This document shows, piece by piece, positions 37,879 through 55,811 of a stretch of 64,000 nucleotides of DNA. The position numbers and the translations under genes were made by a program. How positions within the stretch are numbered: the stretch's first letter is position 1; each line of letters begins with the position of its first letter. The notes beneath the pieces were generated by a model. That model was not told the DNA's origin and did not search any database. It saw nothing but the letters and a program-made list of their open reading frames with translations. Source of the stretch: Sinomicrobium soli (GTDB lineage: Bacteria > Bacteroidota > Bacteroidia > Flavobacteriales > Flavobacteriaceae); NCBI RefSeq assembly GCF_003285545.1, contig NZ_QLNV01000003.1, positions 124,001 through 188,000 of the forward strand. Reading direction: 5' to 3'.

Positions 37879-39555
37879 TCATATCCCGCGGTATTCCGGC
37901 AGCTTCCTGTAGATCATCCAGGAGATCAATCCGACCACTATCCCTACAGAGAGCGTTATCCACAACGCTTTATGATCTGTCATCAGGGCCAGGATTATAA
38001 ATATGATCGCAGTTACGGCCATAGTCCTGGCCAGCACGCGGAGTCCGAAACTGTTCTGTGCCTCACTGCTCTTTAAATCTTCGGCAGCCTGCTTTTCATC
38101 TGCGGTTTTACGGTGAACGGACTTGTAACGGAGGTAATCATCCGATACTTTTCCCCTGCTCCCCGCCCAGATCTCATAGGCTCCGAGAAGTATCACCGGA
38201 ATAAGGGCCCCTGCCAGCATTTCTTCGGCCCGGCTCAACGAAATACCGGTAAAGAGGGGATGAAAAAATTTAAGATAAACATTCAGGGAAAGCCCTAAGA
38301 TCGTGCACCACAAAACGGACTTTCCCGTATGATGTTTCGAAAACAAGGCCCAGACAGGCGGGCCGTAGAGCGAACACCCGGTAACGGCGCCCACACTCAG
38401 TACAATCTCCACAATTCCCCCGGCAGAAGGCACCAGCAAGGCTACACCGATCGTCATGAGCCCGAAAACAACAACGGCCAGTTTCGCGATCACCATCAGG
38501 TGCGCGGGCCTGGTATCCGGGCGTACCGACCGGTACAGGTCGTTGGTAAATACTGCGGCGGCCAGGTTCAGGGTCGTATTGACAGAACTCGCCGTGGCAA
38601 AGACCATCCCTCCCAGCATCAGGCCGATCAGCCCCCGGGGAAGCACTTCCTTGCACATCATCAGGTAGGCCCCTTCACTTTCCAGTCCCGACAAACCCGG
38701 GTTTACCAGGCGGTATATCACGGGAGGTAACATCCAGATCAGGGGACTGACCAGGTATAGTGCGGCAAAGAGATATCCTACCTTTTTTGCCGATGCAGGG
38801 CTGTCTACACTGGTATAGCGCTGTACATAAGCCCAGTTCCCGCCTATAAATATGCCGTTATAGACTCCGAAGGCCAGTAAGAACAGCCAGGAATATTCTT
38901 CATTCACCGGCATAAAGAAACCTTCCGGTGCATCCCGGAACAGGGTATCTATCCCCCCTATACTGTCAAAAGCCAGGGGTACCACAATAAGTACGGCCCC
39001 CGTAAGTACGATAAACTGTACCACATCAGTGATCATGACCCCCCATAAGCCCCCTACCACCGTATAGATAATGATCAGGGCCCCCAATGCCAGAATACAG
39101 GCTTCTATCGGAAACCCGGTAGACACATTGATGATCTTGGCTACCGGGTACAGAAAGGCCCCGGTATACATTAAAGAGATCAGCAGGATAAGGTAACTGT
39201 AGAATTTCTGTATGGTGATCCCCAGCCTTTCAGATACGAATTGAGCTGCTGTCAGGGCCCGCGACCGCTGCCAGGCAGGAGCGATAAACATCCCGACAAA
39301 AAATCCGCCCAGGCACATGGTGAGCTGAATGGCTACCGATACAAAACCGTACTCATAGGCTATGGAGCCCCATACGACAAAGGTCCCTGCAGAAAAAAAG
39401 CTCATAAACAAGGACAGCGAACTGATCTGCCACGGTACGGCGCCCCCGGCGGCAAAATACGACTTCATCGAATTGCCCGTTTTTCCGAAAGACAGCCCTG
39501 CCGCTACTATAATACCTGTAAAGACAAGCATTACGATATAATCCAGAATTCCCAT
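37879..39555 (-). CDS. Sodium:solute symporter (SSS family)
   Basis: A 558-residue inner-membrane transporter of the SSS/SLC5 family that couples solute uptake to sodium. The start MGILDYIVMLVFTGIIVAAG at 39555 places the first helix at the N-terminus. About 13 helices are visible, including SYFAAGGAVPWQISSLSLFMSFFSAGTFVVWGS and QFVSERLGITIQKFYSYLILL. YTVVGGLWGVMITDVVQF is the family's core-helix motif. SSS members in such loci carry sugars, myo-inositol, sialic acid or carboxylates; the substrate cannot be read from sequence. It starts 10 nt after the FAD oxidoreductase gene, so both are one operon. Confidence 0.9.
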   Translation of the reverse strand: MGILDYIVMLVFTGIIVAAGLSFGKTGNSMKSYFAAGGAVPWQISSLSLFMSFFSAGTFVVWGSIAYEYGFVSVAIQLTMCLGGFFVGMFIAPAWQRSRALTAAQFVSERLGITIQKFYSYLILLISLMYTGAFLYPVAKIINVSTGFPIEACILALGALIIIYTVVGGLWGVMITDVVQFIVLTGAVLIVVPLAFDSIGGIDTLFRDAPEGFFMPVNEEYSWLFLLAFGVYNGIFIGGNWAYVQRYTSVDSPASAKKVGYLFAALYLVSPLIWMLPPVIYRLVNPGLSGLESEGAYLMMCKEVLPRGLIGLMLGGMVFATASSVNTTLNLAAAVFTNDLYRSVRPDTRPAHLMVIAKLAVVVFGLMTIGVALLVPSAGGIVEIVLSVGAVTGCSLYGPPVWALFSKHHTGKSVLWCTILGLSLNVYLKFFHPLFTGISLSRAEEMLAGALIPVILLGAYEIWAGSRGKVSDDYLRYKSVHRKTADEKQAAEDLKSSEAQNSFGLRVLARTMAVTAIIFIILALMTDHKALWITLSVGIVVGLISWMIYRKLPEYRGI

Positions 39556-39565
39556 AGCTATCTCT

Positions 39566-41953
39566 TTAACGGTAACAACGAACCCCGAACAGTGCAGCGG
39601 GAACATTGGCCGAAGGATGTTCCAGCACGATAGTCAGCTCCCCCGTCGTTACCGGATCTTCCAAAAATACATTATTTATCGTCTGGTAATTCCCCTCTTT
39701 TTTATACAATACATTCCCCCGGTCGTCAAGGATATGGTAATTCCTGACACAAAACGGCATCACATCTTCCGGGTGCCCCATCAGGACGCTTTCCATGGGA
39801 TGATCGTAATCGGTATCGAAAAACAGGTCGATCCTGCTTATCCTTTCAGGGTTCTCCCAGCGGATACGGACGGTCGGGCGCTTATCGTTCAGATCGGCCA
39901 CCCAGGCATTGGGTGACGTAGTAGGCCTGTAAACCCCGTTCCGGATATTCTCCTTATCAAAAGGCTGCAGCGGCGGATCGATGCTCAGGGCTAAATTGTG
40001 CCCTTCCGGGCGCCGCTGGGGGCACCAGAACTCAAAAGTATCCATCCCTATGTCTTCCGGAGGGGTCTGTTTCCCGAAGTTCGACACCGCCTTATTCACC
40101 AGGTTAAATGCAGATAACACCCCGGTAAGCCTGAGGGAGGAACGGAACAGTTTGATATCCGGGTTTTCACGCAGGATCAGAAAGGCATAGGCTTCCTCTT
40201 CCATCACTGCAGAAAATTCAAGCTTAAGCGTTCTCCGCCCCTGCTTTGTTTCCACCGATTTCTTTTCCAGGATGACATCGGGGGTAAAATTACCTGTCCT
40301 GGAACTGGTCCTCAACTCGACCTCCACGGTAGTGTTTTTCAGAACGGCCAGGTCAAAAGTCAGGGAAGGTACTCTTCCCTGTTTCAGGGGAAGCAGCTGG
40401 GCCACGGAAATATCCAGGGGCAGTACAAGATCTGCATTCAGGGTATCCAGGCAAAAGGTACCGGAGACCTCCAGGGTAGCCTGCCGTACCAGGTCGAGCT
40501 CATCATGCAGGGCAAGCCCGGGAATATGCTGCCCGCTTTTCAGCAATTCCTGCTGCAGATCACCGATAAAGCCCTTGCTTATAATATCCCGGGGATCCAG
40601 ATATCTTTTCGCAGTACAGATGTCATTTCCGGCCGCTTTATGTACAGGCCCCTCTCCTCCTCCGGGATAATATCGGTGCTGTTCCATTTCCGCAAATTCT
40701 ACTTCTGCCGGTGCCTTTTCCCGGGCAATATAGGCCGCCATGCCTATGGCCTGCCCGATATAGGCTGCCGTGGCCATGACCCGGGTAGAAGCAAAAGCCA
40801 CATGGGTGGTACTGATAATGCGCCCTGCCAGGAAAAGATTTTTAATATTTCTGCTGTACAGGCAGCGGTAAGGTATCTGGTATATCCCTTTGGAATGCCA
40901 CTGGTTGCAGCCCGGTTTTTCGCTGAACACACCGTCTGCAGGGTGCAGGTCGATAGACCATCCGCCATAGGCCACGGCATCATCGTGCGCCTTTTGCTCC
41001 ACAATATCCTGCTGGCGTAATATATAATCCCCTTCAAACCTGCGGCTCTCCCGCTTTCCCGGGATCATCCCCACCCATTCCAGGGTCATGGTCTCCGCTT
41101 CCGGGTACTCCCCCGAATTCTTGATATAATCCCACGCGCCGTACACGATCTTCCACAGTTCCCACTTGATCTTTTCGGTATCGTGTATCGTATCCATCCG
41201 CCCCCCGTATTCCAGCCACCAGAGTTTACATCCGTACTCTTTGGCATTAAAACTCCTGAACCGGGGGATTTCCCTGCGTACATCCATTGCAAAATCCGGG
41301 GCTTTATACTTTACCGGCCTTCCGGTATCCTTGCTGTAAAAATACAGGCTGTGCCCCAGCAATTCCCCGTATTCCTCGGTAGGGGCAAATTTCTCTCCGA
41401 ATTCCTCCTGCCTTTCCGCTCCCATCCGGAATGCCGATCCGGAAAGAAAACCCACAATACCGTCGCCCGAAGCATCACAGAACAGCGGAGCATGGACCAC
41501 ATATTCGGTAGAATTCTGGCTGCAGAACCCTTTTACCGACCCGATCCTGTCTGCTTCCGGTTTATACACTTCATAAACAGCAGTGTTTAACAGCAGCGTT
41601 ATGTTGGGTTCACTCTTTACCTTATCGAGGAGGATCATATCCAGGATCAGGGGGTTCCCTTCCCTGTTCCGGTACATGTTTTCCACCAGGATCTCATCGA
41701 TAACCCCGCCCTCACGGCTCCACCTGTTGTTATTGCCGAGATGGGAAGTGGCCCCGAGGATCCACAGGCGCACTTCACTGGATGAATTTCCCCCCAGTAC
41801 CGGCCTGTCCTGGATCAATACTACCCTGATCCCCTTTCGCGCCGCCGTAATGGCCGTACACACCCCGGAAAGTCCCCCACCTATAACCGCCAGCTCCGTA
41901 TGATGAATTTCGCTCTTTAACGCTCTCTTTAATTCATAACCTTTTTTTATCAT
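39566..41953 (-). CDS. FAD-dependent oxidoreductase with C-terminal beta-domain
   Basis: A 795-residue protein (start MIKKGYELKRALKSE at 41953; an ATG 13 codons upstream at 41992 is possible). It belongs to the large FAD_oxidored group. The dinucleotide motif VIGGGLSGVCTAITAARKG is near residue 23 and RPVLGGNSSSEVRLW near 53; the FAD-binding end LFLAGRIISTTHVAFASTRVMATAAYIGQAIGMAA is near 400. The last 250 residues look like a beta-sandwich carbohydrate-binding or galactose-binding-like domain. No signal peptide is evident. Such genes recur in Bacteroidota glycan loci, but their reaction is not established. A YTGGT-triplet operator overlaps its promoter. Confidence 0.85.
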   Translation of the reverse strand: MIKKGYELKRALKSEIHHTELAVIGGGLSGVCTAITAARKGIRVVLIQDRPVLGGNSSSEVRLWILGATSHLGNNNRWSREGGVIDEILVENMYRNREGNPLILDMILLDKVKSEPNITLLLNTAVYEVYKPEADRIGSVKGFCSQNSTEYVVHAPLFCDASGDGIVGFLSGSAFRMGAERQEEFGEKFAPTEEYGELLGHSLYFYSKDTGRPVKYKAPDFAMDVRREIPRFRSFNAKEYGCKLWWLEYGGRMDTIHDTEKIKWELWKIVYGAWDYIKNSGEYPEAETMTLEWVGMIPGKRESRRFEGDYILRQQDIVEQKAHDDAVAYGGWSIDLHPADGVFSEKPGCNQWHSKGIYQIPYRCLYSRNIKNLFLAGRIISTTHVAFASTRVMATAAYIGQAIGMAAYIAREKAPAEVEFAEMEQHRYYPGGGEGPVHKAAGNDICTAKRYLDPRDIISKGFIGDLQQELLKSGQHIPGLALHDELDLVRQATLEVSGTFCLDTLNADLVLPLDISVAQLLPLKQGRVPSLTFDLAVLKNTTVEVELRTSSRTGNFTPDVILEKKSVETKQGRRTLKLEFSAVMEEEAYAFLILRENPDIKLFRSSLRLTGVLSAFNLVNKAVSNFGKQTPPEDIGMDTFEFWCPQRRPEGHNLALSIDPPLQPFDKENIRNGVYRPTTSPNAWVADLNDKRPTVRIRWENPERISRIDLFFDTDYDHPMESVLMGHPEDVMPFCVRNYHILDDRGNVLYKKEGNYQTINNVFLEDPVTTGELTIVLEHPSANVPAALFGVRCYR

Positions 41954-42014
41954 AATCCTGTCTTCTTTACCTTTTTTCCCGATATTAAACATTGACCTTT
42001 TTAACTCAAACCGA

Positions 42015-42022
42015 CAAAACTA
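42015..42022 (-). promoter_or_regulatory. -7 promoter element for the FAD oxidoreductase operon
   Basis: Minus-strand TAGTTTTG matches TAnnTTTG and directly abuts the YTGGT triplet at 42025-42039, which therefore fills the -33 to -7 spacer. Confidence 0.45.
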
Positions 42023-42024
42023 TA

Positions 42025-42039
42025 CTGGTCTGGTCTGGT
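42025..42039. promoter_or_regulatory. YTGGT triplet operator-like element, copy 1
   Basis: Three perfect tandem pentamers CTGGT-CTGGT-CTGGT. The same architecture occurs at 55505, 55812 and 55907. Its place inside the promoter suggests repression when bound. Confidence 0.6.
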
Positions 42040-42565
42040 TTAAAATCAAAGAAAAGAAAAACCATTAGCATAAACAAATATTTTTTCTTGTTATCTATTC
42101 TCAATCATTATTTCACAGAAAAGAGATCAGTATATCTCAATGTTTTTTAGATATTTTACAACATAATCAGGTATTTTCTTACATAAATTTGAAACACTGC
42201 GAAAGTAATCAGTGCAGAAAGAGACTACCCCAAAGCCTTTCTTATCCTAAAAAACAGACCCGTGGTTGATTACCTAATAAGACATGACGTGATTCAAAAA
42301 AGAGAATTCTGTCACGCTAACCTTTATCTTTAATTATCTATAACTATTTATCTGCTATAGAAGATTTATCAGTTTCTACAGCTTCATGAAACATTAATTG
42401 CATTTCCCATGATAAATACTATCTGGATATATTTAACTGCACGAGCCCTTATCTTCTTAATATTTTACAAGCCAATACTTCTTTAATCACTCCGGACAAA
42501 TTCTAAAATAGAAAGAACATAAAAAACCCTCGATAAAACCCTGAAATTTTGCTTTCCCTTAAACT
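42040..42565. other. A+T-rich intergenic region, no gene seen
   Basis: About 525 nt with very low G+C between the sulfatase stop and the FAD oxidoreductase promoter. No frame longer than a few dozen codons and no clear terminator hairpin was found. Confidence 0.5.
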
Positions 42566-44221
42566 TCATATACTTCTATTTCGTTCTTCATAGAGTCTGA
42601 TATAGTAATTGTCCAATTCTACAGAATCATTATACTTCTTACGTATTGCTTTTAATTTTTCTTTCATCCTTTTAACCACGTCTAAATATTCGGGATCCTC
42701 AAATACATTATACATTTCCTCCGGATCTCTTTTCCTATCATATAATTCCCATTCATCAATATCATAATAAAAATGGATGAGTTTATAATTCTTGGTGGCA
42801 ATACCATAATGCCTTTTCACTGCATGAGTTGTAGGATATTGATAATAATGGTAGTAAACTGCATCACGATCCCATTTTTCTTTTTCCCCTTTCAGTAATG
42901 GCAACAAACTCTTTCCCTGCATATCTTCAGGGGCCTTGATTCCTGATATTTCCAAAAAAGTTTGAGCAAAATCGAGATTTTGTACCATTTCATCTTCGGT
43001 AATACCAGGTGTAATTTTATTAGGCCATTTGATTAATAAAGGTGTTTTAAACGATTCCTCATACATAAACCTTTTATCGAACCAACCATGCTCCCCAAGA
43101 TAGAATCCTTGATCCGAAGTATAAACTATTATAGTATTTTTATCCAATTTATTTTTCTCGATATAATCCAGTAAACGCCCTACATTTTCATCAATTCCTG
43201 CTATAGTTCCCAGATAATCTTGCATATAACGTTGATATTTCCATTTTAGCAAATCCTCATCATCCATTGTAGAATATAATTTCTCAAACTCCTCTGAAAC
43301 AGGATAGTAAACACTATCCCAGCTCATTTTTTGAATTTGATCCATTCTGGATAAACCTGAATTTATTTTTCTTTCCTTAATTCCCAGTTTTTTGATGATC
43401 TTCAGATCAACTTTATTATCATAATTAAGATTCATATCCTTCAGAATACTCATTTTTGCAGTTTTAGCAGCAGTTCCCCTATTACTGTAATGGTCCAAGA
43501 GGGTTTGGGGTAAGGAAAATTTCTTCTTAGCATACTCCTTATAATGTCTTTTAGAAGGTAACCATGGCCTATGTGGAGCTTTTTGCAAACACATTAAGAA
43601 AAATGGTCTGTCAGCTTTTCGTCGATTATTGAGCCAATCAATGGTAAGATCCGTTATAATATCAGTTACGTAGCCGTGAATAATGGTGTCTCCTTTATTA
43701 GTAATAAATTCAGGATTGTAATAACTCCCTTGCCCAGGTAAAATTTTAAACTCGTCAAAACCTTTAGGGTTATTTCCAAAATGTAGTTTTCCAAACATAG
43801 CGGTTTGATACCCCTTTTTCTGTAATAGTTGGGGAAAAGTAATGTTCGTTGTATCAAACTTACTGATATTATCTATTTTTCCATTAATGTGACTATGTTT
43901 TCCGGTTAAAATCACTGCACGGGAAGGCGCACATATCGAATTGGTAACTGTTGCATTGGTGAATAAAATCCCTTCTTTAGCAATACGATCAATATTCGGA
44001 GTTTGGATCAGTTTACTACCATAAGCACTGATAGCCTGATATGCATGGTCATCGGACATTATAAAGATAATGTTGGGCTTTTTAGGGGGTTGTTCAATAG
44101 TCTTACTTTTTTCCATGTTATCACATCCGATAATTATCGACGTAATTAGAAAAAAAAGAAGTATACTGACGCATGGGTGATTTTTGACTTTCATCTTATT
44201 TTTTTTCAATGAACTATTCAT
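42566..44221 (-). CDS. Sulfatase, family S1, lipoprotein
   Basis: A 551-residue formylglycine-dependent sulfatase that hydrolyses sulfate esters. The export signal has a lipobox (FFLITSIIIGC, Cys33), so it is an envelope lipoprotein. The metal site begins NIIFIMSDDHAYQAISAYG. The modification motif is CAPSR with Cys97 (C-x-P-S-R), followed by AVILTGKHSHINGK. Further family text is FLMCLQKAPHRPWLPSKRH and YTSDQGFYLGEHGWFDKRFMYEESFKTPLLIKWP. The ATG overlaps the stop of the GDPD gene (ATGA); a second ATG nine codons on (44194) is also possible. It is the last gene of the SusC operon and the most A+T-rich. Related sulfatases act on sulfated glycans; subfamily not assignable. Confidence 0.93.
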   Translation of the reverse strand: MNSSLKKNKMKVKNHPCVSILLFFLITSIIIGCDNMEKSKTIEQPPKKPNIIFIMSDDHAYQAISAYGSKLIQTPNIDRIAKEGILFTNATVTNSICAPSRAVILTGKHSHINGKIDNISKFDTTNITFPQLLQKKGYQTAMFGKLHFGNNPKGFDEFKILPGQGSYYNPEFITNKGDTIIHGYVTDIITDLTIDWLNNRRKADRPFFLMCLQKAPHRPWLPSKRHYKEYAKKKFSLPQTLLDHYSNRGTAAKTAKMSILKDMNLNYDNKVDLKIIKKLGIKERKINSGLSRMDQIQKMSWDSVYYPVSEEFEKLYSTMDDEDLLKWKYQRYMQDYLGTIAGIDENVGRLLDYIEKNKLDKNTIIVYTSDQGFYLGEHGWFDKRFMYEESFKTPLLIKWPNKITPGITEDEMVQNLDFAQTFLEISGIKAPEDMQGKSLLPLLKGEKEKWDRDAVYYHYYQYPTTHAVKRHYGIATKNYKLIHFYYDIDEWELYDRKRDPEEMYNVFEDPEYLDVVKRMKEKLKAIRKKYNDSVELDNYYIRLYEERNRSI

Positions 44222-45144
44222 TCAACCAATAATTCCGGATAATCCGTAATAATACCATCCACCCCCATCAATTTCAGCATATCAATTTCTTCTTTGGTAT
44301 TAGGAGTCCAGGCCACTACCTTCATTCCTCTTTCATGACATTTATCTACTTCTTCCCGGGTCAGATATTTAAAATTCGGACTGTAGATATCAGGTTCAAA
44401 TCCCAATAATTCCAGATTATCCTCCAGTGTGAAGTCTTTCCTTCTGCTTCCCACCAGATATGAAGTTCTTATATAGGGATAATTCTCTTTTAGCACCTGC
44501 AAGGTCCGGACATCGGCAGACTGTATAATAACGTAAGGCATGATTCCCTTTCTTGTGATTACATCCATTAACAATTGTACAAATACCTCCGGAGTCGGGT
44601 TTAAAGTATTATCTCCGCTTACTGAAGATTTAGTTTCAATATTGTAAAAAACCTGCGCTCTACCCTTTTTTTCAATGAAACACTGTACCGAATCGATTAC
44701 GTCTTCCAATAACGGTATGGAAACTGCCATTTTACGTTGGCTCGGAAAAAGATGATGGGCTTTCAATCCTACATCATATTGCTTCAATTCATCATACGTC
44801 ATTTGCATGATGGGATAATTCTCTTTTTCTTCTTCTCTTAGATCTTCTCCATTTGGTTTCCGCGTAAACCACGGATTCAAATAATCATCATGACTCAATA
44901 CAAGTTTTCCATCTGCTGTCACTTTTACATCCATCTCCAGCGTTGTTATTCCATCTATCGAAAGACTATAAAGCATGGAAGGAATTGTATTTTCCGGCAT
45001 CACCCCTCGGCCTCCACGATGACTTTCTCGATCAAAGGCTGGAAATTCTGCTGGTTTCGGGTTCATAGAACATGACACCAATGATATTATGATTCCACAA
45101 AAAAGGAAAGTTTTCTGAAAATTGATCTTATTATTTTCCCTCAT
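44218..45144 (-). CDS. Glycerophosphodiester phosphodiesterase family lipoprotein
   Basis: A 308-residue TIM-barrel phosphodiesterase of the GDPD family. The signal has a lipobox ISLVSC (Cys25). Catalytic residues are visible in HRGGRGVMPENTIPSM (His42, Arg43), the metal ligands Glu70 and Asp72 in LEMDVKVTADG, and the second histidine His85 in LSHDDY. The end VDGIITDYPELL is typical. The family splits glycerophosphodiesters to sn-glycerol 3-phosphate plus alcohol; some relatives act on phosphoinositides or other phosphodiesters. Being an envelope lipoprotein inside a SusC/SusD operon, it likely acts on a polymer-borne or lipid-borne phosphodiester. Confidence 0.92.
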   Translation of the reverse strand: MRENNKINFQKTFLFCGIIISLVSCSMNPKPAEFPAFDRESHRGGRGVMPENTIPSMLYSLSIDGITTLEMDVKVTADGKLVLSHDDYLNPWFTRKPNGEDLREEEKENYPIMQMTYDELKQYDVGLKAHHLFPSQRKMAVSIPLLEDVIDSVQCFIEKKGRAQVFYNIETKSSVSGDNTLNPTPEVFVQLLMDVITRKGIMPYVIIQSADVRTLQVLKENYPYIRTSYLVGSRRKDFTLEDNLELLGFEPDIYSPNFKYLTREEVDKCHERGMKVVAWTPNTKEEIDMLKLMGVDGIITDYPELLVE

Positions 45145-45189
45145 GATAGTTAAACTGTTTCCTGGTTTATCATATTTGCTGGGTCCCTA

Positions 45190-47784
45190 CTAAATATCCA
45201 TCTCAATGACCCGAAGGCCATAGGCTGGCAATTCCACCTTAAAATTCCCCCCATTATCCATAAACTTTTTTATTCGATTTCCTTCTTCGTCATAAAGTAT
45301 GGTGTCTCCTTTATTTGATTCCTTATAAGGTGTGATCTTTTCCCGTTCCACAAGAATATCCGTAACCTGTTTTCCGGTACTGTTATTAAGCAATATAACA
45401 TACAGCTTCTTTGACCTGGAGTTGATCGCTCCTACAAAATCAATACGGGAGTTGCTCATGGTGATCATTTTTTGCTTCAAGAACAATTCGGCCGGCTTTC
45501 CGAAAATATTCCCCATTTCAAAACCATAAGTTTTATGGGGTCCTACTTTAGGAGTAATAAACCCAGCGGGGAAATCGATTTTCCCTTTAGAACGCAATTT
45601 TACTTCCGATAATAAATAATCGGTTATCCAGCCAATCTGCCACCATGCATGATGAGGATAACGTCCGACACCTGCATCCATTGATTTCCAGTAATAGGAT
45701 TGTACTCTCGTTTCGGGATTGACAAAAGCATCCCGTCCCCAGACAGCAGCCCGGGCCATATTAATAAACAGTGAGTCCCGGGTAAGTTGATATAGCCTGA
45801 CAAACATTCCGGCGTGACTTGCCAATAAGATAGGGCCATTATCATTGGCAGATCCCAATAGCCCATTTTGTTCTACTCTCAATCCTGCCTGGCTGATCTC
45901 CCAGTCCTCCCTCTCAATACCATTGACATTTTTTTCAGTCCGATCAGGGACAGGATGTGTGTAAATATAAGTCGTATAAAAACGGGCAGCTTTTATAGCT
46001 GCATCCCTATAACGTTCATCTTCCGTCAATTCATAAAGATCGAGAAGCGCCTGTACACTTTGGGCAGTGGCAAAATCAGGAGCAAACCTGAAATCTCCAC
46101 ACACTCCTAAAAAATGACCTTTGTCAACAGCATTTCTGATAAACCAGTCCGCTCCGTTTCGGGCTGCCCGAAGATACTTTTCATCACCCAATATTCTGCT
46201 CGCCACCACCAGTCCGTAAAAAGTAGGTCTTAAATCCTTTACATCAGTAAAAACCGGATTTTCTGTCTCCCGGTCATATGCTACTTCCCAACGCCCGTCA
46301 GGATGCTGCCAATCCAGCAACTTATCCGCCCCAAGGCGTAATTGTTGCCTTAACAAGGTGTCTTCCGGATTAAAAAGAAGCATATTACCTATATCGAGCA
46401 TAACGTAATATGTAAGACCTATGGGTTCTACATAGTTGCCCCATTCTTCTACAAAACGTTTGCTTTTCCATAAATAATACTGCCCTTTGGCTGCTCCCTG
46501 AAAAAAACCGGATTCGTCTTCCTGCTGAGCAATCTTAAAGTTTCTTGCATAGGGCAGACGCCCTTTCTTAAGTGAGCTGTCGGTCATATTCGACAACATC
46601 CACATCGCCCCATAATCCGAATTCTTCATGGCATCATCGTCCTTATCATAAACACTGCTCAAATAATCCTGTGCTCCTATTTTCAGGTTTTGATAAGATT
46701 GGATATTCCACATAGATATGGAATCATCCTTCACATATCGGGATAGGGCCAAAAGCCTGTCAGACAGGGACTCTTCAGTATCCTTCAATTTCAGGAAATC
46801 CGGAAAACGATAAATATCATTGATTGCATGCTTGTAAACAGGGTACCAATCTGTTGCCTGAAGTGTATACCGAAAATGGAAGGAAAGGGTATCTCCTTCT
46901 TTGAGGTATGACCCCTGTTCTCCCAAAACCGGGTGATATACTACCGGGGTCAACTCCCTGTCCCGGTTCATGATCGACAATCCAAGGTTCCAATCGTTGT
47001 GTGTCCTGTAATCGTATTTCCAAGGATTACGCCCCTGTCCCGGTTCCGGGATTACAGATATGGTATATCCCTCGTTCGAACTGATCAGGGGAGAAAGGGT
47101 ACTTGCTGCACGCTCTCTTAAAAGTACAGGTAACTCGGGTATACCCTGTCCATATCCGTAAGAAAGGACAAGATCAGGTTCCAGGGTATTTCCCTGAAAA
47201 TAACCGGGAACCATTCCCCAACTCAGGTTATCTTCAGAAATTGTAGTCAGAGTGGGGCTTGCTATCGAAAAATAACCGTCTTTTTTTGCGGTTAACTGAT
47301 AATGTACCAGAATATCATTCTTATGACGAGGATCAAGTTCCCAGATTGCTTTTATAAAAGCCCGGTCGGTATCATGAGAGAACATTATCTTATTATTTCT
47401 CTGCTCCGAAAGGGATGGGAAAAATGCTGTTGCCGTACCCTCCTTATTTAAGGGAACAGCGGACAAGCTGTTTTTCCAGCGATCAAAAAAATGCCCGTAT
47501 ATACTATCAGGGAACGTCCGTGCCCTTTCGTTAACTTCCGTTAATAAAGGGTCTCCTTCGGGTCGGTCTTTGGCGTACAGATAAAGATATTCACCTGAAG
47601 GATGTTCCAGCACAATATCATTTTCATCCTCTTTTACCCGAATGGCATGTAACGTAAATCCCGCCGGGGTTTTCTTCCACTGCAAATTCAAATTTTCATT
47701 GTAAAGAAAGAGATCCTGAGTAAAAGATTTTTGAATACTTATTATCCCTATAATGACAAGACAAAGCGTTAAGTTTTTTTGCAT
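45190..47784 (-). CDS. Exported six-hairpin (alpha/alpha-toroid) carbohydrate-active protein, family unknown
   Basis: An 864-residue exported protein with signal peptide MQKNLTLCLVIIGIISIQKSFTQ. Residues about 25-330 are beta-rich. Residues about 340-740 show the helical-hairpin repeat style of the six-hairpin glycosidase-like fold (for example LGADKLLDWQHPDGRWEVAYD, YLRAARNGADWFI, SVQALLDLYELTEDERYRDAAIKAARF and YPHHAWWQIGWITDYLL). The end (about 745-864) is a small beta-domain. This fold includes glycoside hydrolases of several families and polysaccharide lyases. Aromatic and acidic residues in DGRWEVAYDRETE and NGIEREDWEISQAG are candidate active-site parts. I cannot assign a CAZy family. 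Confidence 0.75.
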   Translation of the reverse strand: MQKNLTLCLVIIGIISIQKSFTQDLFLYNENLNLQWKKTPAGFTLHAIRVKEDENDIVLEHPSGEYLYLYAKDRPEGDPLLTEVNERARTFPDSIYGHFFDRWKNSLSAVPLNKEGTATAFFPSLSEQRNNKIMFSHDTDRAFIKAIWELDPRHKNDILVHYQLTAKKDGYFSIASPTLTTISEDNLSWGMVPGYFQGNTLEPDLVLSYGYGQGIPELPVLLRERAASTLSPLISSNEGYTISVIPEPGQGRNPWKYDYRTHNDWNLGLSIMNRDRELTPVVYHPVLGEQGSYLKEGDTLSFHFRYTLQATDWYPVYKHAINDIYRFPDFLKLKDTEESLSDRLLALSRYVKDDSISMWNIQSYQNLKIGAQDYLSSVYDKDDDAMKNSDYGAMWMLSNMTDSSLKKGRLPYARNFKIAQQEDESGFFQGAAKGQYYLWKSKRFVEEWGNYVEPIGLTYYVMLDIGNMLLFNPEDTLLRQQLRLGADKLLDWQHPDGRWEVAYDRETENPVFTDVKDLRPTFYGLVVASRILGDEKYLRAARNGADWFIRNAVDKGHFLGVCGDFRFAPDFATAQSVQALLDLYELTEDERYRDAAIKAARFYTTYIYTHPVPDRTEKNVNGIEREDWEISQAGLRVEQNGLLGSANDNGPILLASHAGMFVRLYQLTRDSLFINMARAAVWGRDAFVNPETRVQSYYWKSMDAGVGRYPHHAWWQIGWITDYLLSEVKLRSKGKIDFPAGFITPKVGPHKTYGFEMGNIFGKPAELFLKQKMITMSNSRIDFVGAINSRSKKLYVILLNNSTGKQVTDILVEREKITPYKESNKGDTILYDEEGNRIKKFMDNGGNFKVELPAYGLRVIEMDI

Positions 47785-47830
47785 ATCCCTATTTAAGTTT
47801 TCAATACAGGTAAATTAAAATAAATATGTT

Positions 47831-48991
47831 TTACTTTATTTTAATACACCGTATGCACTGACCTTCTGTCGCAGGCCTGTTTGACCTGTTTATACCAGGA
47901 TTATTATATAAAACAAGACGCCTGATTCCCCTGTCCCCCTGTGTTCCACTGGGTGTTGAAGTCCAGAAATAAGCATGGCTTTTTTCTCTGTTATAACTTC
48001 CATCAGGATATCTGGCACCATTAGGCAACGCCCGGAATCCAAATTGATCTTTGGCCTCATTACCACCTTCCAACCACCCGTCAGTACTCATCAAAAGCGG
48101 CGCCACATTTCCTCTCCAACCAGCTTCATCCAGTTCATCCTGGTTCATTCCAATGGTTTCCTCTAATATTTTCCAATCATCGTCAGTCGGCACTTTCCAC
48201 CCTTCCGGGCAAATTCCTTTCGGATTGTCTACAACCTTCCAGTTGTAAAGCAGCCCGTACCTGTCAATAACATCCTGCTCCGAATCCATTCCCTCGATAT
48301 TTTCATACGGGTAAACAGTATATGCTCCTTCCGTTGCATCAGACCATTCACTATTATTTAATCCGGTAACAATAGGATCTCCATTATTGTAATGGGTAAC
48401 TTTCAAATTTTCGGCAAACCACTCCTGATCCCCGATAACAACGGTTTCATACTCATTACCATCGTAATCTTTGACTTTTTCGATTACGATCTCTTCAACT
48501 TTATGGTTTAATGTCAACGCTACGGATTCTTCGTCTGCTATATTATATAGCGTTCCTACACCGGATTCTATATCCTGGAGAGATTTGTCATTATAAAAAA
48601 CAGCAAGATCGCCAAAATTTATTCTCCCGTCCCGGTCAGTATCCAGGTGGGCCCCTAAATATATTTGATCCTTTTTCTCAAAGAATTTAAAGGGAATATC
48701 CATCCCCTTATCAATATTCTCCTTTGTCAATTCATAACGAAATGAAAAATCAGGGTTCAGACCAACTCTGTTTTTGCCACTTATTTCGGAATAATACAAA
48801 TCTATATTCAGCATGTCATCGATGTCGGGCTGATTTAACGAATCAAAACTCACGATAACATTAAACGATTGCTTTACTTCATGGCCGGTATAGCCTCTGT
48901 CATTATCTTCTTCACTACATGCGCTTATGAGCAAAGCCGAAAACAAGAATAGTGTTAATCGGTAAAATATGGTTTTGGTGGTCCTTCTCAT
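47831..48991 (-). CDS. FISUMP-domain lipoprotein with calcium-loop-like motif
   Basis: A 386-residue lipoprotein (lipobox LLISAC, Cys25). Residues about 40-145 form a beta-rich domain that contains an EF-hand or dockerin-like loop, DTDRDGRINFGDL, near residue 117. From about residue 160 the Fibrobacter succinogenes major paralogous (FISUMP) domain follows: YDGNEYETVVIGDQEWFAENL, CPEGWKVPTDDDWKILEE and FRALPNGARY, ending AYFWTSTPSG...CIRCIKI. FISUMP domains have a C-type-lectin-like appearance and are thought to act at the cell surface in binding. In a SusC/SusD operon it would be an accessory surface glycan-binding protein. Confidence 0.85.
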   Translation of the reverse strand: MRRTTKTIFYRLTLFLFSALLISACSEEDNDRGYTGHEVKQSFNVIVSFDSLNQPDIDDMLNIDLYYSEISGKNRVGLNPDFSFRYELTKENIDKGMDIPFKFFEKKDQIYLGAHLDTDRDGRINFGDLAVFYNDKSLQDIESGVGTLYNIADEESVALTLNHKVEEIVIEKVKDYDGNEYETVVIGDQEWFAENLKVTHYNNGDPIVTGLNNSEWSDATEGAYTVYPYENIEGMDSEQDVIDRYGLLYNWKVVDNPKGICPEGWKVPTDDDWKILEETIGMNQDELDEAGWRGNVAPLLMSTDGWLEGGNEAKDQFGFRALPNGARYPDGSYNREKSHAYFWTSTPSGTQGDRGIRRLVLYNNPGINRSNRPATEGQCIRCIKIK

Positions 48992-49184
48992 ATTAGTTCA
49001 TTTTATATTTATATTTAAAAAGTACGAGTAGCTGGTTAAGGATTAAAAGACACTTACTTTCCTGGTCTTCTTTATCGGATATTCAAGAGAGTACGACATC
49101 ATGATTCCCGATACCCAATCCTTTTCCTTAATAAAAATGATAAATCTTCCGATCCTTAGATACCATCAACCCGGTGTCGTTATA
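48992..49184. other. Intra-operon gap, no gene seen
   Basis: About 190 nt between the FISUMP gene and the EEP gene, longer than the other gaps of the operon. Contains no hairpin with a T-run and no open frame. Confidence 0.4.
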
Positions 49185-50408
49185 TCAATCGTATGAAAAA
49201 TACAAAACAGATTTTACGGGATGATGATCTGAAGGTACAGGTTCCTGTAACCGTGTGGAAGATCCTTCACTAAAATTAATAATAATACTATAATCCCCTA
49301 TAGACACCTGTTCCCCGGGATATACAAAAATATAATCCAACCGTCGTGAGCCATTTTCACCCGGTTTTACCGAAGAAGTCGCCCTGTTTACAGTGGTACT
49401 ATAATCTTCATTTGTGCGTGTTGGTGCTTCCTGAAACGTATCTGCAAAACCATTTTCACTCAATACCTTGGGAGCCGATTTAATTCCTTCCACTACCGTA
49501 TCAAAATAATTATTGAGGTCGCCCAGTACGACTGCGGGTAATCCGGACTCCTTAACTTCTTGTTTCACATATTCGGCCAAATTACGCGCCCCTATCTGGC
49601 GGATTCTCTGTCCGTCTTTCTTAGGCAGGTTGGTGGAGGCAGGTACATGTACATTGTATACTAATATCTCCTTTCCGGTTTCAATTTCCCGGAGTCTTAC
49701 ATGTGCGATATAACGCGCCGTATTACGTCCTGTGACTTCCGATCCGAAAATATCAATATCATCGTTGTAGCTGACCAATTCAAACTTACCGGGTTTCCAG
49801 CTTATCAGCCTTGCTGACACCTCTCTTTCTGAAATATGGCTATCATAATTTTCACCGATCATCTCCTTTATCTCAGGTGCTACCGTAGTCGTCTCCTGAA
49901 AAGCAATAATATCCGGATTATTATTCGCCTGCAATATCATCGCCTTAAGCGCTTCCTTGCGCAGGTGCCAGGCGTATTCCGGTTCTACATTCGGGTCAGC
50001 TTCTACACCGAGGACATTATAAGTGGTAATAGAAGCCTCAAAGGAGGCAGTATTAATTTGATTGATCGCTGACCAATCTGTCCAACCCGATTTCAACTGT
50101 GCCCTCACCTGGAAAAAATAACTACTCCCTTTTTCCAGGTTTTCGATATCGACGAAGGTTTTCCCGGTTTTTATTAACTCTGCATCTGTCATATTTTCCG
50201 CATCGGAATATCGAACCTCATATTCGGTTGCACCGGACAAGGTTTCCCAATTCAAAACCAACCTGTCCATATAACTGTTCTGGGCAGTAAAATCCGGAGC
50301 TGCCATTTTAGCCGTTCCTTCTTCGTCTTCACTTTTCGAACTGCACGCTAAAATCATAACAAACAACAGCGAACAGATCAACAGGTATATTTTTTTCATT
50401 TTATTCAT
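49185..50408 (-). CDS. FN3 + endonuclease/exonuclease/phosphatase (EEP) family lipoprotein
   Basis: A 407-residue lipoprotein (lipobox MILAC, Cys22; a second ATG lies three codons in). Residues about 35-125 are a fibronectin type III domain (LVLNWETLSGATEYEVRYSD ... YFFQVRAQLKSGWTDWS). Residues about 128-405 are an EEP phosphoesterase domain with the metal ligand in DIIAFQETT, the catalytic histidine in VYNVHVP, GDLNNYFD, and the final SDHHPVKSVL. EEP enzymes hydrolyse phosphodiester or phosphomonoester bonds of nucleic acids, sphingolipids or inositol phosphates. Its location between SusD and glycan-acting genes suggests a phosphorylated glycan or glycolipid rather than DNA. It is the second phosphoesterase of this operon. 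Confidence 0.9.
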   Translation of the reverse strand: MNKMKKIYLLICSLLFVMILACSSKSEDEEGTAKMAAPDFTAQNSYMDRLVLNWETLSGATEYEVRYSDAENMTDAELIKTGKTFVDIENLEKGSSYFFQVRAQLKSGWTDWSAINQINTASFEASITTYNVLGVEADPNVEPEYAWHLRKEALKAMILQANNNPDIIAFQETTTVAPEIKEMIGENYDSHISEREVSARLISWKPGKFELVSYNDDIDIFGSEVTGRNTARYIAHVRLREIETGKEILVYNVHVPASTNLPKKDGQRIRQIGARNLAEYVKQEVKESGLPAVVLGDLNNYFDTVVEGIKSAPKVLSENGFADTFQEAPTRTNEDYSTTVNRATSSVKPGENGSRRLDYIFVYPGEQVSIGDYSIIINFSEGSSTRLQEPVPSDHHPVKSVLYFSYD

Positions 50409-50479
50409 ATTCAGTAATTAATTTTAATTCATCAAGTTTCAATCGAAAATACTGCAGGGCAAAGCCCCGCTGCCGGCTA

Positions 50480-52258
50480 TCAATACCCTTCATTTTGCGT
50501 CAGATTCGGATTCAGACGTCGTTCATCTGCCGGAATCGGCCATAAATACTGACGTTGAGGAAAAGACGTACTCGTCAATTGCTGACAAAGTCCCGCTGCC
50601 CTCAACGGTTCAAAATCAGCGCTGCCATTTTCATCCAGTTGCGGGGTCATTCCCCAGAACCACAATTCCGATTCTATCACGTTTTTCACCAGAGGGGAAT
50701 TATTATCCACTATATCCGGATTATTGTTCGCTGTAATGGCCGCCAGACCGTAGGCCGCTCCTCCATCCATTATTTTATCCGCAATCTTCCAGCGAATCAG
50801 ATCCATATACCGCAGTGACTCATCTGCCAATTCGGCACGTCTTTCATTTCGTATAATATATCGCAACCTGTCCTGGTCAGTTGTAGTTACCACAGGGTTT
50901 GAAAAAGTTGAATTCGCATAGGCCCTGTCCCTCACCTCATTGATGGCTTCCAAAACACTGGCGTCAATTTCATTTAATTCAATTTTAGCTTCTGCATACA
51001 TCAGCAACACATCGGCATAACGCATTGTTATTATGTTATTATCTGCCTGTAGATCATCCCAATCAGAATCGACTCCCTTTTTCCAGACAAGTCCGTTAAA
51101 GCTACAGTAGTTTTGATTGGATTTAGTATCATTATTCGTTTGTTCTTTACCACTCGCATAGTTAAAAATCCTGGTGGCATAAGGATGCGGATTATATTCC
51201 AGATCCATAAACCTGCTACCGTCATCCGGAGAGTTACCATCCCCATCCTCTAAGGAGCCGATAGGAACTATAGTAGCCAACAATCTGGGATCCCTGTTTT
51301 TAAAAGGATTCCGGGGATCAAATAAGGGAGATTGGTCAATGGGTAGTCCGTCAATACATTCAAACGAAGCCAATAGGTCCCACGACGGAACCGCACTCCC
51401 GTATCCTCCGTTATTTCTCGGTATTTTGTAACGCACTTCCCGGGTCGGGATCGTTTGTTGAAATTCTACACCTCTCGGAAGCTGAAAAATGATCTCGGGC
51501 GATGCTTTTGTTTTCGATAAAAAAAGTTCCCCGAAATCCGGGTGTAAGCTATAGGTCCCCAGATCGATACACAAAGCTGCAGCTGCAGCTGCCGTGGAGA
51601 AATCTCCCATATACAAAGCAGCTCTCGCTTTATAGGCCAAAGCAGCACCCTTAGTCGCATATTCCAGATTTGAATGATCCTCCGGAAGGTGCTGAGCCGC
51701 AAAATCAAAATACTCATAGATTTTTTCCAGGATTTCATATTTATCTGTTCTGGCAATCTCGAAAGACTCGTCTACCGTAATTAAATCTTCATAAAACGGA
51801 ACATCTCCGAAATGGGTAATCAAATACGTCCAATACACCCCCAGTAAAAATTTCGCTTCTCCTTCATAGTGTCCGGACTGTACTTCAGACAGAACCCCAT
51901 CCTGCTCCTGGACTTCTTTTACTACTGTCAGCATTCTTATAATACCTTTGTACAAATTATTCCAGTCGTCTTTACCCCTTGTAAATTCGGAGCTCACCGT
52001 ACCAGATTTTATAACGGACAGGGATGTTCTCATCATGGTATCGTCATCCCATCCTCCTTCGGAGCCTCCGTCTCTTCCGTCTCGCGGAAAGAATACCGGC
52101 CGGTAACCTTCATTCAGGGATTGCCTGAAATGTTCTTCTGTTTGATACCACGACCCGGTGCTTGCAGCATCTTCAGGAACCAGGTCCAGTTCATTACAGG
52201 ATATTGAAAGTGTTAATATCCCAAAACAGACTATCAATTTATCTATTATTCTTCTCAT
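50480..52258 (-). CDS. SusD/RagB-family surface glycan-binding lipoprotein
   Basis: An approximately 592-residue SusD-like lipoprotein. The frame can start at TTG 52276 or ATG 52267; I use MRRIIDKLIVCFGILTLSISC at 52258, with lipobox LSISC. Family blocks: SWYQTEEHFRQSLNEGYRPVF, EAKFLLGVYWTYLITHFGDVPFYEDLI, ATKGAALAYKARAALYMGDF, MRYADVLLMYAEAKIELNE and RRAELADESLRYMDLIRW. SusD proteins cap the SusC pore on the outer face and deliver oligosaccharides. The TTG start would lie across the SusC stop, so the two are tightly coupled. The glycan is unknown. Confidence 0.95.
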   Translation of the reverse strand: MRRIIDKLIVCFGILTLSISCNELDLVPEDAASTGSWYQTEEHFRQSLNEGYRPVFFPRDGRDGGSEGGWDDDTMMRTSLSVIKSGTVSSEFTRGKDDWNNLYKGIIRMLTVVKEVQEQDGVLSEVQSGHYEGEAKFLLGVYWTYLITHFGDVPFYEDLITVDESFEIARTDKYEILEKIYEYFDFAAQHLPEDHSNLEYATKGAALAYKARAALYMGDFSTAAAAAALCIDLGTYSLHPDFGELFLSKTKASPEIIFQLPRGVEFQQTIPTREVRYKIPRNNGGYGSAVPSWDLLASFECIDGLPIDQSPLFDPRNPFKNRDPRLLATIVPIGSLEDGDGNSPDDGSRFMDLEYNPHPYATRIFNYASGKEQTNNDTKSNQNYCSFNGLVWKKGVDSDWDDLQADNNIITMRYADVLLMYAEAKIELNEIDASVLEAINEVRDRAYANSTFSNPVVTTTDQDRLRYIIRNERRAELADESLRYMDLIRWKIADKIMDGGAAYGLAAITANNNPDIVDNNSPLVKNVIESELWFWGMTPQLDENGSADFEPLRAAGLCQQLTSTSFPQRQYLWPIPADERRLNPNLTQNEGY

Positions 52259-52272
52259 AATTATCATTCTTT

Positions 52273-55200
52273 TCAAATGCTCAGTTGCAAACCAATTAAA
52301 AAAGATTTTGTAATAAGGTAGCTGTTTCCACCCCCTTGTTCGGGATCTATTCCATCGGGTAAGCTATCGAAAGTGAACAAATCATTTCCCGACAAATAGA
52401 TACGTAACTTTCTTATATTAATTTTTGAAGTTACATTTTCAGGAATGGTATATCCTAAAGTGAGATTCTTTATCCTCAAATAGGAACCGTCTCTTAACCA
52501 GAAATCTGAAAAGGCATTGTTGTTGTCCCGATTGTTATTTCCAATACGGGGATACCGGGCCGACAGGTTTTCTTCGGGTGTATTGTAAAAACTCCAGTAA
52601 TTTCCGTCTATAAGTTCAGGAGGAGACTTCCAGTTACCCTGAAATGCCGTGGCATACGTTGACGGGTTGAGGTAAAAGCTATGTTTGGCAACCCCTTGAA
52701 AAACCAGTCCGAAATCAAAACCTTTATAACCTAAACTGATATTACCTCCATACTGATACCTCGGCAGGGAACCGTCGAGAACGGTTTGATCCAATTCGTT
52801 AATTTCACCGTCAGGAACTCCGTCAGGGCCACTTATATCCTTATACCTCACATCTCCGGGGGCAACCACACTACTGGTCACCGCAGAGTTATCCACCTCT
52901 TCCTGGGTCTGGTAAATACCATCTGACTGATAACCGTACCAGGATTGGAATTCGATCCCCTCTTCTGACAAGGTGTTTCCACTAAACAAACGTTTACCTG
53001 CAACATCTCCAACGACTGATTTGGCATCAAAAACGTTTGCCGATACAGAATAACTTAAATCGCCTATTTTATCACTCCATGATGCGGCCAGTTCCCAACC
53101 CCTGGTATTCATACCACCAACATTTACAGTCGGATCTTCGAAGCCGCTTAAGGCAGGAATACTTAATCCCAATAACATATCCCTGGTTTCCTTATCAAAA
53201 TAATCCGCTTTAAACGACAGCCTGTTGTCCAGGGTCGTGAAGTCTACTCCTATATTAAATGAGGTCGTAGTTTCCCAGGTAATATCTGATACTGCCAGAT
53301 AACGTTGTGCGGCCCGCCTCACAGATAAAACATCTTCTCCATTGGCAATTAAAACATTGCCGAACTGCAGGGTTGAAAGATATAAATAGTTTCCCAGCCG
53401 GTCATTTCCCAAGCTACCGTAGGAAGCTCTGATCTTTAAGAAATCAATAAAAGAAGCGGATTCCATAAATTTTTCTTCAGAAAGTACCCATCCCAATGCT
53501 ATGGAAGGAAATGTTCCCCATCTGTAATCGGCACCAAATCTCGAAGATGCGTCCCGGCGTACCGTTCCCTGCAGGTAATATTTTTTATCAAAATCATACG
53601 ATATCCTGCCAAAATAGGATCGGTAGGCCAATTCCGAGATTCCCGAGCCATTATCGAAAACCTTATCTATCGGAGCCTGACTCAAAAAAGGATAATCATT
53701 ACTGATAAACTCTTCTCCTGTTACCCGGATAGCTTCTACCTTATTGGTGTATTCCTCAAATCCGAATACAGAGTTGATACTGTGATCTCCAAAAGTCTTC
53801 TTATAATCCAGTACTGCCTGTGTGGTCAGTGATTTTTCAATAACCCTGTTCTCATCCAGACTTCGGTTTGTCGGGCTATGACTTGTCAGATAGTTCGGCT
53901 CCTGTGTCATCTCCTTATCATCCGCCCCCCAGTAGGGTATTGAATTGACAAACCTCTTATAATTTCTAAATTCATAGTTTGGTGAAGCATTAATAGAAAT
54001 CTTCATACCCTCCAAAGGTTTCACATACAGTTCAAACTTTCCACTAACTATGGTATTGGAATTTTCCCGTGAACCGCCATAAAGTAATTTGGCGTAAGGA
54101 TTAGTCCCTGTTTTTCCATCCGCGACCCTTCCATCTGCCCATACAGCCGGATAAATTGTACCCGCAGTAATTGCCGGTTCAGTAGGATCAAAAACGGGTT
54201 CGTCTGCATCAACCTGGCTGAATGCCATATTTAAAACTGCTCCGAACTTATCGGTAATCTTCAGATCGTTATTCAACCGGCCAGTATACCGCTTCCAGTC
54301 CCTGTTTTTATATAGTGCATCCTGACTTTCGTAACCGAAACTGGCATTGGTTTTCAATCTCTCCGTCCCCCCGGATAAAGTCAGGACATGACGCTGGGTA
54401 TGAGACTGTTTTCTCAAAATAAGGGACCTCCAATCAGTATCCGGGTAATTGTCTGGGTTTTGTTTATGAAGTTCCGCATAATTTGCTATAACTTCCGGAT
54501 CATAAGTGCTGAACTCATTCTGCTCATTATTATTGTCGTTCCAGATAGCTTCATTAAACATTTCCATATATCGTACGGCTCCTACATTTCTCCTTATTTC
54601 CGTAGGCTTGTTAATGGCATATTCGGAATTATAATTTGCACTGAAAACTCCTGTTTTGGCTCTTTTTGTCGTAATTATTATAACCCCTGCTGCTGCCCGG
54701 GAACCGTATATAGCTGCAGAAGCTGCATCTTTGAGCACAGAAATGGACTCTACATCTTTTGGGTTTACCACATTGATATCCTTGACCGGAACATCGTCTA
54801 CCAAAATTAACGGACTACTATCTCCCTGTAAGGTAGTAATCCCCCGAATCCTGATGCTATTGCCGGATCCTGGTTCAGAATTACTCCGGGTGACACTTAC
54901 TCCCGCAGCTGCACCTTGTAAGGCATTCGAGATGTTAGTGACGCTCCTCGAGGCAATATCTTCTCCACCAATCACGGAAACAGAGCCGGTCAGATCCCTT
55001 TTAGCCTGGGTTCCATAACCGACAACAACAACCTCATCAAGATTCTCCAGGTCTCTTTCCATTTTAATATTTATGACACTCTGGTTATCTACCGGTATTT
55101 CTTTTGTCTTATACCCCATATAACTGAAGACCAGGGTTGAATTTACCGGAACATCCAAAACATAATTCCCATCAAAGTCCGTTATGGTCCCCACTTTTTC

Positions 55201-55437
55201 ATTACCTAAAATAATCACATTTACCCCGGGGATGGGAATATCATCAGAATCTGTCACGGTACCTCTTACCTGTCGTTGATCCTGCTTATTCTCTCCGAAG
55301 GAATTATAACTTTCAAGTGTTGTTTCCAGGTATTTCCCGTTGTAACTAAATGAATAAGCTACAAATGGAAATACCATTAAAGTACAGACCAGATATCTCA
55401 CTTTAATTAAAAAAGGTTTGGTTTTTAGTTTTTTCAT
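52273..55437 (-). CDS. SusC/RagA-family TonB-linked outer-membrane transporter
   Basis: A 1054-residue TonB-dependent transporter. A signal region (about 1-30) is followed by the CarboxypepD_reg-like N-terminal extension (RQVRGTVTDSDDIPIPGVNVI ... FSYMGYKTKEI, about 56-126), the TonB-box-like DEVVVVGYGTQAKRDLTGSVS near 134, the plug domain (to about 260, with VESISVLKDAASAAIYGSRAAAGVI) and the 22-strand barrel ending in FLIGLQLSI. There is no STN domain, so no FecI/FecR-type control; regulation is more likely through the divergent GntR gene. First gene of the operon; a YTGGT triplet lies 68 nt upstream. Confidence 0.97.
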   Translation of the reverse strand: MKKLKTKPFLIKVRYLVCTLMVFPFVAYSFSYNGKYLETTLESYNSFGENKQDQRQVRGTVTDSDDIPIPGVNVIILGNEKVGTITDFDGNYVLDVPVNSTLVFSYMGYKTKEIPVDNQSVINIKMERDLENLDEVVVVGYGTQAKRDLTGSVSVIGGEDIASRSVTNISNALQGAAAGVSVTRSNSEPGSGNSIRIRGITTLQGDSSPLILVDDVPVKDINVVNPKDVESISVLKDAASAAIYGSRAAAGVIIITTKRAKTGVFSANYNSEYAINKPTEIRRNVGAVRYMEMFNEAIWNDNNNEQNEFSTYDPEVIANYAELHKQNPDNYPDTDWRSLILRKQSHTQRHVLTLSGGTERLKTNASFGYESQDALYKNRDWKRYTGRLNNDLKITDKFGAVLNMAFSQVDADEPVFDPTEPAITAGTIYPAVWADGRVADGKTGTNPYAKLLYGGSRENSNTIVSGKFELYVKPLEGMKISINASPNYEFRNYKRFVNSIPYWGADDKEMTQEPNYLTSHSPTNRSLDENRVIEKSLTTQAVLDYKKTFGDHSINSVFGFEEYTNKVEAIRVTGEEFISNDYPFLSQAPIDKVFDNGSGISELAYRSYFGRISYDFDKKYYLQGTVRRDASSRFGADYRWGTFPSIALGWVLSEEKFMESASFIDFLKIRASYGSLGNDRLGNYLYLSTLQFGNVLIANGEDVLSVRRAAQRYLAVSDITWETTTSFNIGVDFTTLDNRLSFKADYFDKETRDMLLGLSIPALSGFEDPTVNVGGMNTRGWELAASWSDKIGDLSYSVSANVFDAKSVVGDVAGKRLFSGNTLSEEGIEFQSWYGYQSDGIYQTQEEVDNSAVTSSVVAPGDVRYKDISGPDGVPDGEINELDQTVLDGSLPRYQYGGNISLGYKGFDFGLVFQGVAKHSFYLNPSTYATAFQGNWKSPPELIDGNYWSFYNTPEENLSARYPRIGNNNRDNNNAFSDFWLRDGSYLRIKNLTLGYTIPENVTSKINIRKLRIYLSGNDLFTFDSLPDGIDPEQGGGNSYLITKSFLIGLQLSI

Positions 55438-55504
55438 AAACGATCAGGTTTTAAAGTTGTTCCATCAATCAAAAACAAAACAGTATTGAAAACAAACAAT
55501 TAGT

Positions 55505-55519
55505 CTGGTTTGGTTTGGT
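55505..55519. promoter_or_regulatory. YTGGT triplet operator-like element, copy 2
   Basis: Tandem CTGGT-TTGGT-TTGGT preceded by TTAGT, 68 nt before the SusC start codon, likely just upstream of the SusC promoter. Confidence 0.6.
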
Positions 55520-55811
55520 TGTAAATATACTATTTTTTAATTAAAATCCTAATGACAGACTCAACACTTCATCTAAACTTAACACTTGCGCCCTTGAAAT
55601 AATATCACGAAATAAAAGAATAACACAATCTTAAAACATTCTTCATACGACTGGCGGGAAGGGGACTTTAAAAAGGATTACAGATTTATTTCTAAGAGAT
55701 CAAGTATCTGAAACAACTCGGGATAAATTGCCATTACTCTTTTGTGTCATCAATCAACAAACAAGAAATTATCATTGAAAAAGCTACACAACACTCTTTC
55801 ATAATATTAGT

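Follow-up and report, generated by a model that had tools for sequence, protein, structure and literature searches.

A mosaic glycan-uptake locus of Sinomicrobium soli with an apparently exchanged seven-gene middle and a conserved six-hairpin protein

We analyzed a 64,000-nt stretch of Sinomicrobium soli DNA (the window; coordinates are positions in it) containing a SusC/SusD (SusCD)-type glycan-uptake locus in which two lipoproteins of phosphoesterase folds, belonging to the GDPD and EEP families, lie among other degradative genes. Seven genes run on the minus strand from 55437 to 42566, in the order SusC, SusD, FN3-EEP lipoprotein, FISUMP lipoprotein, six-hairpin protein, GDPD lipoprotein, and CxPSR sulfatase. 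The SusC/SusD and GDPD/sulfatase pairs overlap by 4 nt, and the remaining gaps are 45 to 193 bp. The window's open reading frames (ORFs) confirm the coordinates quoted in an initial annotation of this DNA; the genes are listed here with their profile matches, lipoboxes, and, where it is given, the G+C fraction at third codon positions (GC3).

52273-55437, minus strand: SusC-type TonB-linked transporter (TIGR04056, E = 5e-280; GC3 0.397)
50480-52276, minus strand: SusD-type lipoprotein (PF07980, 6e-50; GC3 0.417)
49185-50408, minus strand: FN3-EEP lipoprotein P0005 (Pfam Exo_endo_phos, 3e-9, plus fn3; lipobox ILAC)
47831-48991, minus strand: FISUMP-domain lipoprotein (PF09603, 3e-43; lipobox ISAC)
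45190-47784, minus strand: six-hairpin protein P0003 (AF2 model; N terminus resembling a signal peptide; no lipobox found when the cassette proteins were checked)
44218-45144, minus strand: GDPD-family lipoprotein P0002 (PF03009, 5e-34; PDB 3ch0, 3e-61; lipobox LVSC)
42566-44221, minus strand: S1-type formylglycine sulfatase (Pfam Sulfatase, 6e-56, plus SGSH_C; C-A-P-S-R; lipobox IIGC; GC3 0.297)

The Pfam matches, lipoboxes, and tight same-strand packing bear out the proposal of the initial annotation that the GDPD and the FN3-EEP protein are lipoproteins of one SusC/SusD operon-like locus. It also placed the sulfatase and the six-hairpin protein in this locus, correctly, although the sulfatase lies outside the span that it quoted, 44218 to 50408.

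What the initial annotation overlooked is the actual structure, a swapped block of genes flanked on one side by a fixed regulator and on the other by a fixed pair of genes for an FAD oxidoreductase and a sodium:solute symporter (SSF). GC3 is 0.30 to 0.42 in the seven genes and 0.51 to 0.65 in all other window genes of more than 150 aa, bar one small ORF at 0.46. The same-genus genomes G002, G003, and G004 carry the regulator, FAD protein, and SSF genes in identical order, but the middle differs: there, SusCD is accompanied by genes for GH2-type, GH97, beta-helix, and sulfatase proteins, to which G004 adds a FISUMP protein. The framing proteins are well conserved in these relatives: the FAD protein is 77 to 83% identical, and regulator homologues score 640 to 672 bits. 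In a blastn comparison with G004, DNA homology stops at 41955, the likely start codon of the FAD gene, and restarts at 55803. The cassette and the genes that frame it are as follows.

41956-55803: exchanged cassette, 13.8 kb (borders from blastn, the GC3 step, and the neighborhoods in relatives)
39566-41992 (likely start 41953), minus strand: FAD_oxidored protein P0008, native flank (PF12831, 4e-92)
37879-39606, minus strand: SSF sodium:solute symporter P0009, native flank (PF00474, 2e-34)
55993-57018, plus strand: regulator with a GntR-type helix-turn-helix and a periplasmic-binding-protein-like (PBP) domain (profile match), native and divergent from SusC

The GC3 step, together with relatives that keep the framing genes but not the middle, therefore identifies a 13.8-kb A+T-rich cassette of seven genes that was exchanged within a preexisting glycan-uptake locus; it appears to have originated elsewhere before coming to lie between native regulator and native transporter genes. 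Its parts are of known kinds, and their combination was not found in the other loci examined. Among the homologues seen, the best match to SusC (1109 bits) is in genome G161, whose SusD is 55% identical to that of the window.

We consider it probable that the locus belongs to a generally familiar kind of polysaccharide utilization locus (PUL) and has had its middle replaced, so that a native regulator and FAD/SSF pair now frame an acquired seven-gene cassette. Like SusCD PULs of Bacteroidota, it has a SusC/SusD pair, a surface lipoprotein, a sulfatase, a periplasmic enzyme, a divergent sugar-type regulator, and an inner-membrane symporter; unlike the usual examples, it has two phosphoesterase-fold lipoproteins, lacks any protein at a curated Pfam glycoside hydrolase (GH) cutoff, and has had its middle exchanged as one cassette. 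With respect to the features by which such PULs are recognized, SusC and SusD genes adjoin; as to a recognized carbohydrate-active enzyme, the evidence is mixed, with a sulfatase present but P0003 below the GH127, GH88, and C5-epimerase cutoffs. The locus is a mosaic PUL, a variant form of a familiar system built around a single widely conserved, unassigned protein. It is a clear case in which the regulator and the inner-membrane and cytosolic end were kept while the entire outer-membrane and degradative middle was exchanged.

The conserved protein is P0003. Its AF2 model is confident (pLDDT 88, pTM 0.90), and a fold search of the PDB returned similarity at the level of fold class only (TM 0.15 to 0.35). 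Scores were 20.4 bits (3e-4) against the GH127 profile (cutoff, 24.9), 16.2 bits against GH88 (cutoff, 26.6), and 18.5 bits against C5-epimerase (cutoff, 23.3). Assignment to GH127, GH76, or GH88 was rejected, the matches being of fold class only and the GH127 and GH88 scores below cutoff. GH154 could conceivably be its home. Members of GH154 have been reassigned as uronate dehydratases (PMC12269599).

When each species was represented by a single genome, 155 relatives of P0003 were found, and 80 of their loci were read, the hosts being chiefly Pedobacter, Chitinophaga, Dyadobacter, Spirosoma, and Runella. The neighbors in these 80 include SusD (78 loci), SusC (77), SSF (69), the FAD protein (59), and GH2 (44). 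Since the six-hairpin family recurs with SusD, SSF, the FAD protein, and GH2, the acquired cassette and the native FAD/SSF pair would fit together functionally. An EEP gene was found in none of the 80 loci, a GDPD as one partial gene at a locus edge, and a sulfatase in 3. In a tree, P0003 clusters with a few loci that include the three sulfatase-bearing ones (L020, L034, and L036), and L020 and L034 hold the best-matching SusD within the loci of that group. Judged by gene content, SusCD thus occurs elsewhere too with a six-hairpin protein and a sulfatase, and what is added here is the phosphoesterases. P0003 is a candidate for the core enzyme of the locus, from an unassigned family that has neither a Pfam entry nor a close solved relative, and the analysis brings that family into view. 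A bolder proposal is that P0003 defines a new enzyme family at the conserved core of a glycan system widespread among terrestrial Bacteroidota (SusCD, six-hairpin protein, GH2, FAD oxidoreductase, and SSF), retooled here with sulfatase, GDPD, and EEP against a glycan bearing sulfate and phosphate esters; we hold this to be quite unlikely.

Two further arrangements were seen in the six-hairpin loci. Directly after the P0003 homologue in L021 (12586-16050), L044 (12547-15873), and about 20 more Pedobacter and Chitinophaga loci lies a larger, distantly P0003-like family of about 1100 to 1150 aa, for which no Pfam match was found. Dyadobacter loci, L054, L064, and L070 among them, encode an ApbE flavin transferase next to a further FAD-type protein; just downstream of the six-hairpin locus they carry a TauE-like exporter together with a Cys/Met pyridoxal phosphate enzyme.

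Operator-like TCTGGTTTGGT repeats are present upstream of SusC as well as of the FAD gene.

55499-55921, plus strand: three operator-like repeats of TCTGGTTTGGTnTGGT between the regulator and SusC (copies at 55504, 55811, and 55906)
42024-42039, plus strand: fourth operator-like TCTGGTTTGGTnTGGT repeat, upstream of the FAD_oxidored gene

Relatives retain two of the copies on the regulator side, and a genome-wide scan allowing up to 2 mismatches gave three matches, all in the regulator-SusC intergenic region. The simplest reading of these predicted repeats is that a single regulator governs both halves of the locus. More speculatively, their position close to both joins could mean that they also served in the cassette exchange. 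Replacement of the middle, with operator-like repeats near both joins, is a testable way for Bacteroidota to change diet. A promoter scan scored no better than shuffled sequences.

Several observations sit uneasily with one coordinated locus of replaced middle. A GC-rich, terminator-like hairpin lies between SusD and the EEP gene (50454-50470), which is compatible with partial termination downstream of SusCD. The spacer between the sulfatase and FAD genes is 573 bp, so these genes may not be cotranscribed. The repeat motif is a prediction; with up to 3 mismatches allowed, a control using the reversed pattern returned 7 matches. The tree placement of P0003 has a support of 90 and lies on a long branch.

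The two phosphoesterase-fold lipoproteins raise the question of substrate. In P0002, the catalytic residues (HR..EN, ExD, and a downstream His) are intact in alignment. Its closest relatives, 51 to 54% identical, come from SusCD loci that also encode a metallophosphoesterase (L220 to L222), so a SusCD locus with two phosphoester-cleaving families already exists. L220 also encodes GlpD, GlpK, a GlpF-like protein, and GlpT; L221 and L222 are simpler. These glycerophosphodiester-type loci resemble the window locus in combining a GDPD, SusC/SusD-like genes, and a second phosphoesterase family, but, unlike in L220, no glycerol-3-phosphate transporter or kinase was identified in the window locus, and its SusCD is of another type. 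P0002 is the only one of the four GDPDs in this genome that lies near SusD. In the literature searched, we found no paper naming PULs and glycerophosphodiester phosphodiesterase together with SusD.

Such relatives invite the view that the locus scavenges organic phosphorus, importing phosphodiesters or sugar phosphates chiefly as a phosphorus source, with low phosphate as the inducer. The PusCD system of Flavobacterium couples SusCD to phosphodi- and monoesterases (PMC8115612), as the window locus joins SusCD with GDPD and EEP, and 576 SusCD loci free of carbohydrate-active enzymes carry phosphodiesterases (PMC6499787). PusCD is induced by low phosphate, and no sulfatase or six-hairpin gene figures in its description (PMC8115612). 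A sulfatase and a six-hairpin protein are ill-fitting in a phosphorus scavenger, GlpT, GlpK, and GlpD were not identified among the cassette and flanking genes examined, the regulator is of the sugar-type GntR/PBP kind, and the fixed partner genes track glycan loci. We regard phosphorus scavenging as unlikely.

The sulfatase aligns over its full length with S1_11 enzymes (context in PMC10154612) at more than 510 bits, its closest PDB entries being 7p24 and 5g2v (BT3177 and BT4656 type), and it has the CxPSR formylglycine site, a likeness at the level of sequence. Its conserved stretches FDKRFMYEE and H-x-VKRH are, as sequence, compatible with the S1_11 His plus Asp/Arg recognition triad.

P0005 contains all EEP superfamily motifs (N, E, GDxN, D, and SDH), and its catalytic residues (N131, E172, D297, N299, D358, and S393-D394-H395) are intact in alignment; its model is moderately confident only (pLDDT 75). 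The initial annotation took it for a phosphodiesterase, a reading too narrow for a fold that spans monoesterases: the fold matches include mono- and diesterases, and fold and profile searches alike place the characterized Bacteroides mannosyl-6-phosphatase BT3783 (PDB 4c1r) among the best matches. BT3783 shares the EEP fold and catalytic residues at about 20% identity, and P0005 adds an FN3 domain; the BT3783 gene is located in the yeast-mannan PUL. No homologue of P0005 was found in 395 genomes (E ≤ 1e-25), in 198 genomes of the phylum and 250 of the family (E ≤ 1e-8), or in plasmids. Its role thus cannot be read off relatives, and such an absence is unusual for a conserved catalytic fold.

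In the Sinomicrobium genome, 12 of 17 EEP genes, at 8 loci, lie within 6 kb of SusD, as does only 21% of the genome, so an EEP gene next to SusCD is normal here. The suggestion that two phosphodiester-cleaving families are rare in PULs is not supported, given this count and the existence of SusCD loci with GDPD and metallophosphoesterase.

The initial annotation had favored a system dedicated to a single glycan or glycolipid that carries sulfate esters together with phosphodiester linkages, be they of the glycerophosphate, phosphoinositol, or sugar phosphodiester type. The intact catalytic residues of both phosphoesterases and the GDPD-sulfatase overlap within one cassette of similar composition speak for it. 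It is weakened by the EEP genes common beside SusCD in this genome, by the monoesterase activity possible for PUL EEPs (4c1r), and by the different contexts in which the nearest relatives of the individual genes are found. The set of GDPD, EEP, six-hairpin protein, and sulfatase recurred in none of the 80 six-hairpin loci, a result that the annotation itself had named as refuting one coherent system, and we regard a dedicated system as unlikely. The opposite view takes the EEP protein, and perhaps the GDPD, as passengers (a generic surface nuclease or phosphatase; phospholipid-headgroup salvage) captured by chance in a mosaic PUL. P0005 has no detectable close homologue, and among P0002 relatives several belong to glycerophosphodiester-type loci or are found away from SusCD loci, but conserved catalytic sites and tight gene packing suggest selection, and we judge chance capture very unlikely. 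The phosphoester idea matters only if both enzymes act on the same glycan.

For a PUL with a replaced middle, a sulfated, phosphate-bearing glycan is a possible target. A lipobox followed by acidic residues points to surface display. Acidic residues follow the lipobox of the EEP and FISUMP proteins, which suggests that both are surface displayed, the FISUMP protein presumably as an accessory; the GDPD and sulfatase, which lack a clear acidic run, are more likely periplasmic. Gene content, intact catalytic residues, the composition step, the cassette borders, repeat positions, and conserved partner genes are observed, and from them we infer locations, order of steps, substrate, and regulation. 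The glycan would be captured at the cell surface by the SusD, FISUMP, and FN3-EEP lipoproteins and partially dephosphorylated there, and oligosaccharides would be imported through SusC. In the periplasm, P0003 would cut or modify the glycan, the S1_11-like sulfatase would take off 6-O-sulfate, and the GDPD would remove a glycerophosphoryl-type substituent. The SSF symporter may then carry the freed sugar inward for processing by the cytosolic FAD enzyme, with the regulator acting at the TCTGGTTTGGT repeats upstream of SusC and the FAD gene.

Beyond the regulator lie two more genes.

57028-58350: MFS sugar porter, directly adjoining the regulator gene
58387-59199: HAD gene, beyond the MFS sugar porter

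The HAD phosphatase had been placed just past the regulator, but the MFS sugar porter comes first. The HAD and MFS neighbors are kept together in one same-genus genome, and the HAD gene was rejected as a member of the uptake unit, being native flank conserved with its MFS neighbor.

Across its 4.6 Mb, the Sinomicrobium genome carries some 80 SusD genes, the mark of a glycan generalist. A cluster of three of its SusCD operons (G000:C1:65110-104449, L141 to L143) has paired EEP genes, one of them with an AGE-type epimerase and another with SSF and FAD-type genes. A secreted protein family of 826 to 841 aa, 36 to 64% identical and without a Pfam match, adjoins the SusCD pairs closest to that of the window (L137:11074-13599, L144:10521-13007, and L149:11570-14050).

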